From Candidatus Methylomirabilota bacterium (GTDB lineage: Bacteria; Methylomirabilota; Methylomirabilia; Rokubacteriales; CSP1-6): a stretch of 37,282 nt of DNA. The position numbers and the translations under genes are program-made. A model generated the notes under the pieces. It saw only the letters and a program-made list of their open reading frames with translations, searched no databases and had not been told where the DNA came from. This document shows, piece after piece, positions 10,644-14,895 of this stretch. Location: assembly GCA_036001065.1 (NCBI GenBank), contig DASYUQ010000033.1, positions 1 through 37,282 of the forward strand. The letters run 5' to 3'. Position 1 is the first letter of the stretch; every line of letters starts with the position of its first letter.

Positions 10644-10786
10644 GCGGGCGCTCCTCCGACCGCGCTCGTGAACACGCGAGTCCGGGCGTGAGGATATCAC
10701 GGCGGCCGCGGGCGTCTCCGGGGGGCGGGGCCCACCGGGGGACAGACAGTGGATGAGCTGTGGATGGTTGGTGGACACCTTTTTTC

Positions 10787-10840
10787 TTGACGGACGCTAC
10801 ATTCTGCGTGCTAGATTTCGGACACCACAAGATATAGTTA
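10787..10840 (+). promoter_or_regulatory. nrdJ promoter region with two NrdR-like boxes
   Basis: Two 16-bp sites resemble the NrdR box acaCwAtATaTwgtgt: ACGCTACATTCTGCGT (10794-10809, 11 of 16) and CCACAAGATATAGTTA (10825-10840, 12 of 16; core CAAGATATAG). Their centres are 31 bp apart, the three-turn spacing usual for NrdR operators. A TTGACG -35 candidate (10787-10792) abuts the first box and a TGc-TAGATT-type -10 (about 10809-10817) or TATAGT (10833-10838) lies between or within them, so the ATP/dATP-sensing repressor NrdR would cover the promoter. The assignment is by pattern only. Confidence 0.6.
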
Positions 10841-10923
10841 TAGGAGGGGGTCTGCTCAGGGTCCGCCGGCAGGGTCAGCGGCGCGACCATTCCAGGGTGT
10901 TCGAGCGAAAGGAGGAAAGGAGC

Positions 10924-13900
10924 ATGCTGTCGGAAAGCCGCCCGGCGAAGGTCGGCAAGTGGACGGAACCCGCTCTCCGCGTACTCCGCGAGCGCTACCT
11001 CACGCGCAGGGATGGGGAGGTGGTCGAGACCCCGGAGGAGATGTGCTGGCGGGTGGCCCAGTCCATTGCCGCCGGTGAGGCGCGCTACGGGCGCAGCCCG
11101 GCGGCCGTGCGGGAGATCGCCGAGGCCTTCTACGACATGATGGTGGACGGCTACTTCCTGCCGAACTCTCCCACGCTCATGAACGCCGGAAAGGGCAACG
11201 GCCTGCAGTACTCCGCGTGTTACGTGCTCCCGGTCGGCGACTCGATGGAGGAGATCTTCGACTCGGTGAAGGCGGCGGCGATCATCCACAAGTGCCTTGT
11301 CGCCGACACCTGGGTCATGAGCAATGGGCTGACCCGTCTAAGCGAGGTCCCAGACGGCGCCCTGGTCATGACCGACGAGGGTCCCTTCCATGTCAGCGCG
11401 TGGCACGACAACGGCGAGCAGCCCGTCTTCGAGGTCCGGACGAACCGGGGCTACCGGATCGTCGGGACCGCCGAACACCGGTTGCTGGTCGTCGCTGACG
11501 ACGGTTCCTATGGCTGGCGGAAGATCGGCGAGCTCCGCGGAGGCGACTGGCTCGTCATGAAGCCAGGGCCCTGGATCTGCGGTGAGACGAAGCTCCCGGA
11601 GTTCGAATTCGCTCAGAAGCGGGGCGGAAACTGCACCAGCTTCAGAGCCACGGAATACCGCTTGCCCAGGGAGTTGACGCCCGCCCTGGCGGAACTCATC
11701 GGTCTCTACATCGGTGATGGCTCGAACCATCGCGACGGCATCCGCGTCACGGTCAGCCGGGAGTGTCCCGAGGTCGTCCGGAGGATCGAAGAGACCAGCT
11801 TCGCGCTGTTCGGCAAGCGGGCTTCGATCAGTTACGATGCCCGGAAGCACACGTTTGAAGTCGCAATCTTGAGTACCCAGATCAAGGCATGGTTCGACTT
11901 CCTTGGCGTGACGAAGGCCTCGGCCCGCGAGGCCCAGATCCCGCCGATCATCCTCCGGAGCACCGAAGAAGTGGCCTGTGCTTTCGTGCGTGGGCTCTTC
12001 ACGGCCGACGGATGTGTCCGCAAGAACGGCCACATCACTCTGACGACGATCTCACCGCGACTGGCCGAAGACCTTCAGAGCCTGTTGCTGGCCCTCGGCG
12101 TGCCGACGCACCTGCGCAAAGACGTCTGGGCCTCGGGCTATGAGGTCTACCAGGTCTCCGTCTGCACCAAGGCAGGATTCCGGATGTTCCGGCGGAAGAT
12201 CGGATTCATCGCTGGACGCAAAGCGGCACGCCTGGCGGCCGTCGATGAGGACGCGATCTTCGTGAAGGGTGAAACGATCCCGAATCAGCGGCGCAGACTC
12301 CGCACGTGGTATGACGGACTTCCGGCGGACCAGCGGCGGCAGGCAAAGAGGCTGTTCGACGACCTGCTCAATCGAGTCACAGCCCCCAGGGAACTGAGCC
12401 GGCAGCGGATTACGGCCGCCTTGAAGGGCTCGGGGCCATTCCCGTCGTTCTTCGAGGAGTTGGCGAAGGATGACTTCTTTTTCGTCCGCGTCACGGCGAT
12501 CCGTCCGGCCGGCATTCGTCGCGTCTACGATCTGACCGTTCCCGAGAAGCACGCTTATATCGCAAACGGGTTTGCGGCGCACAATAGCGGGGGGGGCACG
12601 GGCTTTGCGTTCTCTCGCCTGCGCCCGAAAGACGACATCGTCACCTCCACCGGTGGACGGGCCTCCGGGCCGGTGTCCTTCCTCCGCGTGTTCAACGGCG
12701 CGACGGAGGCCGTGAAGCAGGGCGGCACCCGTCGCGGCGCTAACATGGGGATCCTGAGGGTCGATCACCCCGACATCCTCGAGTTCATCGAGTGCAAGCT
12801 GGACGGGGGCATCACCAACTTCAACATCTCCGTCGCCGCCACCAACGCCTTCATGGAGGCCCTGGAGAAGGGCGAGGACTACGACCTCATCAACCCGCGC
12901 AACGGCAAGCCGATCGGGCGCCTCTCGGCCCCGGAGGTGTTCCGGCGCGTCGTCGCGGCCGCCTGGCGCACGGGCGATCCGGGCATGGTCTTCATCGACC
13001 GGATCAACGCCAGCCCGGCGAACCCCACGCCCGAGATCGGGATGATCGAGGCGACCAATCCCTGCGTCACGGGCGACACGCGGGTGGCCACGCCCGAAGG
13101 GTGGCGTCGAGCCGACGCCGTTCGCGCGGGCGGCCTCATCCTCACCGTCGACGGTCCTCGGCCTGTCGAGCGCGTGGAGATCAATCCGAATACTCCGATC
13201 TTCCGGGTCGACTTCTCGGACGGCGGCGGCCTTCGGGTCACCGCCAGCCATCAATTCCACGTCTACCGGCAGGGCGCCGGGTTCCTCCCGACCCGCCTGG
13301 ACCGGTGTCATGTCGGCGACGAGGTCCAGACGCTCCACGCCGGGGTGTTCGGGGCGGCCAAGATCCTGCGCATCGAAGCGGTCGGCGTCGCCACGACGTA
13401 CGACCTCTACGAGCCGGAAACAGACACGTGGATCACCGAGGGGTACATCTCCCGGGGGTGCGGGGAGCAACCGCTCCTGCCGAACGAGGCCTGCAACCTC
13501 GGCTCGCTCAACGTGTCGAAGTTCGCGCGGCGGGGAGCCGATGGGGAGTGGTCCGTCGACTGGGAGGAGATGGAGCGCGTCATCCGGCTGGCCGTCCGGT
13601 TCCTCGACGACGTCATCGAGATGAACCCGTACCCGCTGCCCGCGATCGATGCCACCGTGAAGGCCAACCGCCGCATCGGCCTGGGTATCATGGGCTGGGC
13701 CGACCTGCTCTTCATCCTCGGCATCCCGTACGACAGCCAGGAGGCGATCAACCTCGCCGAGCGCCTGATGTCGTTCGTGAAGGACAAGGCCCACGACCAG
13801 TCCGCCAAGCTGGCCGAGGAGCGCGGGCCCTTCCCGAACTGGGGAGACTCTATCTACCGGAACGTGGGGCCTATGCGGAACTCGACGGTCACCACGATCG

Positions 13901-14895
13901 CCCCCACCGGGACGATCTCGATGATCGCCGGCTGCTCGTCGGGCATCGAGCCGATCTTCGCGCTGGCCTTCGAGCATCGCGTCAAGCAGCCGGACGGGGA
14001 GCGCGTGCTGACGTTCGTCAACGAGACCTTCGAGTGGCTGGCCAAGGAGCAGGGGATCTACTCCGATGCGCTCATGCAGGAGATCGCGCACCGGGGCTCG
14101 CTGCACGGCATCCCGGGGCTGCCGGAGGACGCGGCGCGCGTGTTCAAGACCTCGCACGAGATCGGCTACGAGTGGCACGTGCGCCATCAGGCGGCCTTCC
14201 AGCGCTACACCGACAACGGCGTCAGCAAGACCATCAACCTGCCCAACAACGCCACCGAGGAAGACGTCGCCAGTGCCTATCGTCTGGCCTGGCAGCTCGG
14301 CTGCCTGGGCATCACCGTCTTCCGCGACGGCTGCAAGGGCGAGCAGGTCCTGAACGTCGGCATCAAGAAGGACAAGGCGGTCGCCCCCGCGTCGGCGGGT
14401 CCGGTCGTCATCAAGCCGCGGCCACACAGCCTGAGCGGCACGACGTACCGCACCGAGACGCCGATCGGCACGGCGTTCATCACCGTCAACGAAACTCCCG
14501 ACCGCGAGCCCTTCGAGGTCTTCGTCCAGGTAGGCAAAGCGGGCTCGGACACCATGGCGGTCGCCGAGGCTCTTGGACGGCTGATTTCGCTCGTTCTGAG
14601 GCTGCCTTCGCCGCTATCGGCTCAGCGACGGCTCGAAGAGGTCATCAGCCAGCTCAGCCGAATCGGAGGTGGCCAGCCGACTGGCTTCGGCCTTGCCAAG
14701 ATCCTGTCGCTCCCCGATGCGATCGCCCGCACCCTGGCCGAGCACATCGGCCAGCTCAAGCCCGCCAACGACTTCGCGGCGGCCGCGACGGGCCGGAAGA
14801 CCATCGGCGATCTCTGCAAGGAATGCGGCCAGGCGACCTTCATCTACGAGGAAGGTTGCAAGAAGTGCCTGTCGTGCGGGTTCAACGAGTGCTGA
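10924..14895 (+). CDS. nrdJ: B12-dependent (class II) ribonucleotide reductase with two inteins
   Basis: Adenosylcobalamin-dependent reductase that makes deoxyribonucleotides. The precursor is 1323 aa; removing two inteins (431 and 132 aa) leaves 760, normal for NrdJ. The start ATG 10924 follows an AAAGGAGG SD. Landmarks: NSPTLMNAG and LQYSACYVLPV (redox Cys99), SGGGTGFAFSRLRP, NPC^GEQPLLPNEACNLGS (thiyl-radical Cys846 and partner Cys857, 11 residues apart as in Thermotoga NrdJ), TIAPTGTISMIAGCSSGIEP, and a C-terminal Cys-rich zinc-like tail (CKECGQ...CKKCLSCGFNEC). Intein 1 interrupts HK^SGGGTG, intein 2 interrupts NP^CGEQ; both sites are in active-site loops. It is monocistronic between a NrdR-like operator and a strong hairpin. 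Enzyme function depends on both inteins leaving. Confidence 0.96.
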   Translation: MLSESRPAKVGKWTEPALRVLRERYLTRRDGEVVETPEEMCWRVAQSIAAGEARYGRSPAAVREIAEAFYDMMVDGYFLPNSPTLMNAGKGNGLQYSACYVLPVGDSMEEIFDSVKAAAIIHKCLVADTWVMSNGLTRLSEVPDGALVMTDEGPFHVSAWHDNGEQPVFEVRTNRGYRIVGTAEHRLLVVADDGSYGWRKIGELRGGDWLVMKPGPWICGETKLPEFEFAQKRGGNCTSFRATEYRLPRELTPALAELIGLYIGDGSNHRDGIRVTVSRECPEVVRRIEETSFALFGKRASISYDARKHTFEVAILSTQIKAWFDFLGVTKASAREAQIPPIILRSTEEVACAFVRGLFTADGCVRKNGHITLTTISPRLAEDLQSLLLALGVPTHLRKDVWASGYEVYQVSVCTKAGFRMFRRKIGFIAGRKAARLAAVDEDAIFVKGETIPNQRRRLRTWYDGLPADQRRQAKRLFDDLLNRVTAPRELSRQRITAALKGSGPFPSFFEELAKDDFFFVRVTAIRPAGIRRVYDLTVPEKHAYIANGFAAHNSGGGTGFAFSRLRPKDDIVTSTGGRASGPVSFLRVFNGATEAVKQGGTRRGANMGILRVDHPDILEFIECKLDGGITNFNISVAATNAFMEALEKGEDYDLINPRNGKPIGRLSAPEVFRRVVAAAWRTGDPGMVFIDRINASPANPTPEIGMIEATNPCVTGDTRVATPEGWRRADAVRAGGLILTVDGPRPVERVEINPNTPIFRVDFSDGGGLRVTASHQFHVYRQGAGFLPTRLDRCHVGDEVQTLHAGVFGAAKILRIEAVGVATTYDLYEPETDTWITEGYISRGCGEQPLLPNEACNLGSLNVSKFARRGADGEWSVDWEEMERVIRLAVRFLDDVIEMNPYPLPAIDATVKANRRIGLGIMGWADLLFILGIPYDSQEAINLAERLMSFVKDKAHDQSAKLAEERGPFPNWGDSIYRNVGPMRNSTVTTIAPTGTISMIAGCSSGIEPIFALAFEHRVKQPDGERVLTFVNETFEWLAKEQGIYSDALMQEIAHRGSLHGIPGLPEDAARVFKTSHEIGYEWHVRHQAAFQRYTDNGVSKTINLPNNATEEDVASAYRLAWQLGCLGITVFRDGCKGEQVLNVGIKKDKAVAPASAGPVVIKPRPHSLSGTTYRTETPIGTAFITVNETPDREPFEVFVQVGKAGSDTMAVAEALGRLISLVLRLPSPLSAQRRLEEVISQLSRIGGGQPTGFGLAKILSLPDAIARTLAEHIGQLKPANDFAAAATGRKTIGDLCKECGQATFIYEEGCKKCLSCGFNEC
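11293..12585 (+). mobile_element. Intein 1 of NrdJ, with LAGLIDADG homing endonuclease
   Basis: Precursor residues 124-554 (431 aa). Starts with Cys (CLVADTWVMS, block A), has block B GTAEHRLLVV with the T-x-x-H, and ends with block F VYDLTVPEKHAYIANGFAAHN: the His543, His553 and Asn554 needed for C-terminal cleavage are present, with Ser as +1 extein residue. Between the splicing blocks are two LAGLIDADG-type motifs, LIGLYIGDG (acidic residue D265) and FVRGLFTADG (D362), so the homing nuclease looks intact. It appears a standard class 1 intein, able to splice and to home. The codon/base texture looks a little less GC-rich than the flanking nrdJ by eye. Confidence 0.95.
13063..13458 (+). mobile_element. 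Intein 2 of NrdJ: mini-intein with atypical C-terminus
   Basis: Precursor residues 714-845 (132 aa), with no endonuclease. Block A (CVTGDTRVATPEGW) starts with Cys and block B (LRVTASHQFHVY) has T-x-x-H, so the N-terminal half is complete. The C-terminal half aligns as TTYDLYEPETDTWITEGYISRG: the block F His position is Trp, and the usual His-Asn end is Arg-Gly. The +1 residue is Cys846, the thiyl-radical cysteine of NrdJ. The boundaries are set by continuity of the NPCGEQPLLP motif. Without Asn cyclisation ordinary splicing should not complete; it may be decayed, use other chemistry, or be spliced in a way not predictable from sequence. Confidence 0.85.

Follow-up and report, generated by a model that had tools for sequence, protein, structure and literature searches.

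Gly-ended mini-inteins before the radical cysteine of class II ribonucleotide reductase as probable members of an intein clade that splices without asparagine cyclisation

Introduction

How does an intein that ends in glycine leave the protein that it interrupts? The question is raised by a ribonucleotide reductase gene of a Candidatus Methylomirabilota bacterium (GenBank assembly GCA_036001065.1, contig DASYUQ010000033.1, positions 1 to 37,282; this whole stretch of 37,282 nucleotides is referred to here as the window). In section 6 of PMC4031507 the last cleavage of splicing proceeds by cyclisation of an Asn, Gln or Asp residue, and roles in Asn cyclisation are assigned to the F:13 His, the G:6 His and the G:7 Asn. 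Both histidines are dispensable in some inteins, and Asp and Gln can substitute for the terminal Asn, as the same section describes; Gly in the place of the terminal Asn, and the joint replacement of all three residues, are absent from that section. A search of the open-licence literature found no description of Gly-ended or Asn-free inteins, including any from Rokubacteria or from NrdJ and other ribonucleotide reductases (RNRs), and such a description may exist elsewhere.

The nrdJ gene and its two inteins

The features on which the argument depends all lie on the forward strand of the window and are given below, with the evidence for each in brackets; in the text a slash within a sequence marks a splice junction.

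10753..14895, + strand: nrdJ frame, encoding a class II (vitamin B12-dependent) ribonucleotide reductase and two inteins (open reading frame; NF006417; Ribonuc_red_lgC)
11293..12585, + strand: first intein, 431 aa, LAGLIDADG (above cut-off for Intein_splicing and LAGLIDADG_3)
13063..13458, + strand: Gly-ended mini-intein, 132 aa, between NrdJ ATNP and CGEQPLLP (conserved end; predicted Hint fold)
13063..13065, + strand: Cys1, block A nucleophile (invariant in the 20 rows of alignment A2)
13240..13251, + strand: block B T60-x-x-H63 (all 20 rows of alignment A2 have this Thr and His)
13402..13404, + strand: Asp114, F:4 (invariant in 29 distinct ends)
13423..13425, + strand: Asp121, F:13 His slot (invariant in 29 distinct ends; column in common with His)
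13429..13431, + strand: Trp123 (invariant in 29 distinct ends)
13450..13458, + strand: Ser130-Arg131-Gly132 (invariant in 11 Rokubacterial rows)
13459..13461, + strand: Cys+1 (CGE follows at 35 of 35 loci)

The frame is open throughout 10753-14895 and reaches 983 bits with NF006417, above the cut-off of that model; its true start is uncertain because a second in-frame Met lies at 10924. The first intein ends AAHN/S and provides an ordinary HN-ended comparator within the same gene. The second insert is scored weakly by family models, with Hint_2, Intein_splicing and intein_Nterm all below their cut-offs. It had been placed at 13063-13458 by the original prediction, and these borders are exact: the codon at 13063 is Cys1, 13456-13458 is Gly132 and 13459 begins Cys+1. 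The insert ends in DTWITEGYISRG, is flanked by EATNP on the N-extein side and by CGEQPLLPNEACNLG on the C-extein side, and reads TYDLYEPETDTWITEGYISRG/C at the Gly132-Cys+1 junction. The Cys+1 is what we take to be the radical cysteine of NrdJ, the carrier of the thiyl radical. Since the insert splits NP from CGEQPLLP just before this residue, unspliced NrdJ should be inactive.

The block A Cys and the block B T-x-x-H that had been predicted are present, and the C-terminal His-Asn is missing as described, Arg standing where the penultimate His would be and Gly where the terminal Asn would be. One assignment had to be corrected: Trp had been put in the block F His slot, which in fact holds an invariant Asp. 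An ungapped comparison of the end of the first intein (VYDLTVPEKHAYIANGFAAHN) with that of the mini-intein (TYDLYEPETDTWITEGYISRG) brings the F:13 His opposite Asp, the G:6 His opposite Arg and the G:7 Asn opposite Gly, and a MAFFT alignment with HN-ended inteins likewise places the His column at Asp121; the column of Trp123 commonly holds Phe or Tyr in HN-ended inteins. An HMM alignment to Mxe GyrA has a one-residue gap at the F:13 region, so the equivalence of Asp121 with F:13 rests on the ungapped and MAFFT comparisons. By alignment, then, the three residues of Asn cyclisation have been exchanged together, for Asp, for Arg or Gln, and for Gly.

Relatives and conservation of the end

The Gly end was read at 35 loci in total, comprising 11 Rokubacteria, 2 Chloroflexota and 22 viral contigs, which reduce to 29 distinct ends over the last 24 residues. 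Invariant across these 29 are Asp(-19), which is F:4, Asp(-12), Trp(-10), Gly(-6) and Gly(-1), with Arg (25) or Gln (4) at -2 and Ser (21), Gln (7) or His (1) at -3. This table alone is no test of conservation, because most of its loci were collected by patterns asking for parts of the end (D-x-W, G and G/C). Five viral loci (L113, L114, L115, L116 and L120) form a Gly-ended subgroup with a block F Cys at -16 (YDLxC).

Searches that were not keyed to the end bear on conservation more directly. When the whole insert was used as the query, 44 of 148 related genomes gave matches, of which 13 were long and the others short and confined to the N-terminal half of the insert; the same 13 were recovered when 95 genomes of the phylum were searched with a profile. 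All 11 full-length Rokubacterial matches, the window included, end SRG/CGEQPLLP, with S130, R131 and G132 invariant throughout, and the ten others are 69 to 96% identical to the window insert. One further long match (G057) is ended by its contig end, and in another (G020, locus L015) an in-frame gap removes the last 21 residues of the intein together with the radical Cys. In G022 (L005/L035) an in-frame gap takes away the end of a further intein, the one that follows NEAC, along with CNLGS. Both gaps lie near intein ends and resume at (S)LNVSK; they could have arisen when alleles with and without the intein were assembled together, or could reflect a true loss. In G039 (L013/L042) a further nrdJ intein after NEAC, starting CFAPETRI and ending THSLIAEGMIVHN/CNLGS, has an ordinary HN end and sits directly downstream of the Gly-ended intein in the same gene.

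The spread of these relatives was followed with a pair of patterns drawn from the C-terminal half, which in genome contigs of 84,980 species returned 10 relatives (9 Rokubacteria and 1 Anaerolineae). A pattern search of 400 genomes of the phylum of that Anaerolineae gave 2, the same genome and one more, and 388 genomes around G000, the genome of the window, gave 11 Rokubacteria and two chance matches (L204 and L205). Like these two, L121 was rejected as a chance pattern match that is not NrdJ. Viral contigs scanned with alignment A1 gave no confirmed relative. Using tblastn, intein identity was at most 31.1% among the matches listed, both in phages (searched with three members) and in plasmids (one member), these being the best 40 of 44 and the best 15 of 20 in two of the searches; these figures concern identity, not C-terminal ends, and a member in a named phage or plasmid may exist. 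One match that was fetched (L112) is a class Ib-type reductase frame whose visible inteins end in HN and GN.

For viral contigs an end-blind scan was made with an alignment (A3) of 14 long members lacking their last 30 residues and with patterns drawn from block A and the endonuclease. Among its 47 loci, 17 had E values of 1e-28 or below, and every one of these ends Gly/Cys. Eleven of the 17 are themselves rows of A3 and three (L225, L228 and L229) were already known, so the new evidence amounts to three contigs (L216, L218 and L227), all of them Gly-ended. The other 30 loci were weaker, with E from 5e-15 to 2e-4. No Gly/Cys end occurred among the 26 of them that were read (L236, L237, L247 and L259 were left out), of which 13 end in Asn and 13 have no end in the stretch that was read. 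Eleven of the Asn ends are TGN/C, from viral RNR inteins (L230-L235, L240-L242, L248 and L250) that retain the terminal Asn and have Gly where the penultimate His would stand.

A frameshift or sequencing error hiding His-Asn, and a lone damaged copy among HN-ended homologs, had both been envisaged as ways in which the prediction might fail, and both are excluded by the reading of the same end at 35 loci. Searches of the kind that had been proposed, for inserts ending S-R-G before CGEQP with an alignment of blocks F and G, yielded the 11 Rokubacterial SRG ends and a conserved set of Asp, Arg or Gln, and Gly, and the conservation of the end on which a new intein type had been made to depend is found. 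Two other ways of preserving conventional chemistry were considered and rejected. A shifted junction, with another residue cyclising, is out: -2 is Arg in 25 of the 29 distinct ends, and no conserved Asn, Gln or Asp near the end would leave a clean NP-CGEQ. A class 3-like branch on an internal Cys fails as well, Cys82 being invariant in the 11 Rokubacterial rows and not in others, and the -16 Cys occurring in 5 of the 29 distinct ends.

HN-ended inteins that share the insertion site

The NrdJ NP/C site before the radical cysteine appears as an insertion hot spot in viral contigs (L065-L110). A control scan for HN/CGEQP-L returned 47 viral stretches, 41 of which have an upstream NPC start (one, L067, is doubtful), and this site yielded 30 distinct HN-ended inteins, 123 to 372 aa in length. 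In a tree of 21 Gly-ended and these 30 HN-ended inteins, each set collected by its ends and the sample covering these two endings alone, the two were separated with support of 100/100 after removal of the last two columns, and a tree of the N-terminal part separated them at 99/98. The HN-ended viral inteins thus have the NrdJ NP/C site, Cys1 and Cys+1 in common with the Gly-ended ones, and differ in their HN end and their separate group in the tree. LAGLIDADG_3 scored above cut-off in all 14 long Gly-ended members tested, of 21 long ones, so that the Gly-ended clade has mobile-type members; its mini-inteins are L063 (149 aa) and the Rokubacterial ones.

Predicted structure

An AlphaFold2 model built on 20 members has a pLDDT of 90.6 and predicts an ordinary Hint fold for the mini-intein. 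Its best structural matches are inteins, among them Ssp DnaB (1mi8; Z 20.8, 1.6 A over 131 residues), gp41-1 (Z 20.2 and 20.6) and NrdJ-1 (Z 20.2). Model residue 137, which is Gly132, closes the alignments with gp41-1 (chain residue 125) and Mtu RecA (residue 440), presumably the terminal Asn of each.

Selection and the need for removal

Among nine Rokubacterial members (36 pairs) pN/pS is 0.067 in the last 22 codons against 0.298 in codons 1-100, with pS of 0.74 and 0.64, respectively, and the C-terminal Ser, Arg and Gly are written with differing codons across Rokubacterial members. The 28-residue N-extein has a pN/pS of 0.103, and the 12-residue C-extein shows zero amino acid changes. An uninterrupted TNPCGEQP site is present in 44 of the 95 phylum genomes and in 0 of the 13 carriers; the insert is in frame at a conserved site, and insert-free alleles occur in relatives.

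In G000 (estimated 100% complete and 1.63% contaminated) a single gene matches PF02867 and none matches PF13597, leaving the inteinated nrdJ as the sole ribonucleotide reductase detected. A second complete NrdJ gene was likewise not seen in seven other full-length carriers, G001, G047, G038, G021, G017, G035 and G028 (75 to 97% complete), G038 having a short fragment of another NrdJ gene. In G022, G039 and G043 there is a second NrdJ that reads NPCGEVPLLP and has no insert, and the inserted copy is therefore not proven essential in these three.

These data weigh on the proposal, one of three originally offered, that the insert is a decayed relic in which splicing has been lost. A lone loss of HN would look alike, and two related metagenome-assembled genes, those of G020 and G022 among the 13 long-match carriers, look broken near the site. 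Against this reading stand the conservation of the end at 35 loci, in one clade that spans bacteria and viruses, the strongest constraint falling on the end itself, and the position of the gene as the only reductase detected in G000, and we regard a relic as extremely unlikely.

How the Gly-ended intein may leave its host

Since relatives in bacteria and in viruses keep this ending, Gly-ended inteins probably exit the host protein by a different chemical route, and of the original options it is other C-terminal chemistry that sequence comparison supports best. It is quite likely, on these grounds, that the mini-intein is removed by Asn-independent splicing, and likely, with the predicted fold also considered, that it is a working member of a distinct intein clade that splices without Asn cyclisation.

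The usual first two steps may be expected, because Cys1, T-x-x-H, the F:4 Asp and Cys+1 are intact: an N-S acyl shift at Cys1 would be followed, as in class 1, by transfer of the N-extein to Cys+1. An acyl shift after Pro, the residue at position -1 of the N-extein, would be out of the ordinary; HN-ended inteins also occupy the NP/C site with Pro at this position. For the third step we tentatively favour, by analogy, a thiol-mediated acyl transfer that would open the Gly132-Cys+1 amide, the thiol being either that of the freed Cys1 or that of Cys+1 itself through an N-to-S shift. Gly132 would offer an unhindered carbonyl, with Asp121 and Arg/Gln131 at the positions of the two catalytic class 1 histidines. 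By accepting the N-extein, the freed amine of Cys+1 would then restore native NP-CGEQ; the Gly thioester would either hydrolyse or close on the amine of Cys1 to yield a circular intein. In peptides a Gly-Cys amide is opened by the neighbouring thiol through N-to-S acyl transfer under thiol, acid and heat, according to PMC3277902, and PMC4016753 describes a protein with an N-terminal Cys and a C-terminal Gly-Cys that was circularised by N-to-S transfer. Cys1, Gly(-1) and Cys+1 in a Hint active site would supply the groups for the same exchange; as the precedent chemistry required heat, acid or thiol, the intein would need to provide strong catalysis. Carried to its end, thiol-mediated acyl transfer would exchange two peptide bonds, and a fourth mechanistic class, in which Pro/Cys1 and Gly/Cys+1 undergo thiol-mediated transpeptidation without Asn cyclisation and the intein is freed as a closed circle, is conceivable and somewhat doubtful.

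The main rival, which we hold to be rather unlikely, is hydrolysis: after the class 1 branched intermediate, water activated by Asp121 would cut Gly132-Cys+1, with Arg/Gln131 as oxyanion stabiliser, and the intein would leave as a linear chain with a Gly carboxylate. The invariance of Asp(-12) and the Arg or Gln at -2 across the 29 distinct ends, at the places of the two histidines, agree with such a role, whereas hydrolysis gives no special reason for an invariant Gly, and amide hydrolysis by an Asp-activated water with neither a metal nor a second acid would be, to our knowledge, new for the Hint fold. Less likely again are a host protease and plain cleavage. A protease or other host factor could cut Gly132-Cys+1 once the N-extein had moved to Cys+1, ligation following by an S-to-N shift, and its recognition residue could be Arg(-2), which 25 of the 29 distinct ends have. 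The same factor would be needed across Rokubacteria, Chloroflexota and 22 viral contigs, and four distinct ends have Gln instead of Arg; cleavage by the host protein, the third of the original options, is hard to reconcile with a single ending found both in two bacterial phyla and in many viral contigs, and is improbable.

There is also the chance, which we consider very slight, that the element only cleaves, either at its N-terminal junction, in the manner of type B BIL domains, or at both junctions without ligation, the enzyme being two-chain or regulated by cleavage. Type B BILs do lack the C-terminal intein motif. The break would in this case fall at the radical cysteine loop, and the site, the extein residues and Cys+1 match a mobile splicing element. 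Thiol-mediated transfer at Gly-Cys is the last step tentatively preferred here.

Relation to known inteins

The closest comparison is with class 1 inteins (Ssp DnaB, gp41-1, Mxe GyrA, Mtu RecA and NrdJ-1), with which the predicted Hint fold is held in common at Z of 19 to 21, as are Cys1, T-x-x-H, the F:4 Asp and Cys+1 in the 20 rows of A2. Gly-ended inteins have the Cys or Ser at position 1, the T-x-x-H and the +1 nucleophile by which class 1 is recognised, whereas all 29 distinct ends carry Gly at the place of the C-terminal Asn, Gln or Asp, and the penultimate and F:13 histidines, common in class 1 and not universal, are Arg or Gln and Asp. Other inteins lack a terminal Asn: Pab and Mma Pol II and CIV RNR end in Gln or Asp, which can still cyclise according to PMC4031507, in contrast to Gly, which has no side chain with which to do so. 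Class 2, defined by Ala1, does not accommodate an invariant Cys1, nor does class 3, defined by an F:4 Cys and a Trp-Cys-Thr set, accommodate an F:4 Asp present in 29 of 29 distinct ends. Type B BIL domains have the intein motifs except the C-terminal one, and the Gly-ended inteins likewise have no HN; the BILs occur in variable, non-conserved proteins without a +1 nucleophile, whereas the Gly-ended inteins occupy one exact RNR site, with Cys+1 at 35 of 35 loci.

Implications

If this clade has replaced the whole cyclisation set, it would represent a second solution to the last step of protein splicing. Whether an intein must end in a cyclisable residue is directly testable with a protein of 132 residues. 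If the mini-intein works, it would be a ligation tool with a C-terminal step unlike that of all current tools, and it might also provide circular protein from a natural source.
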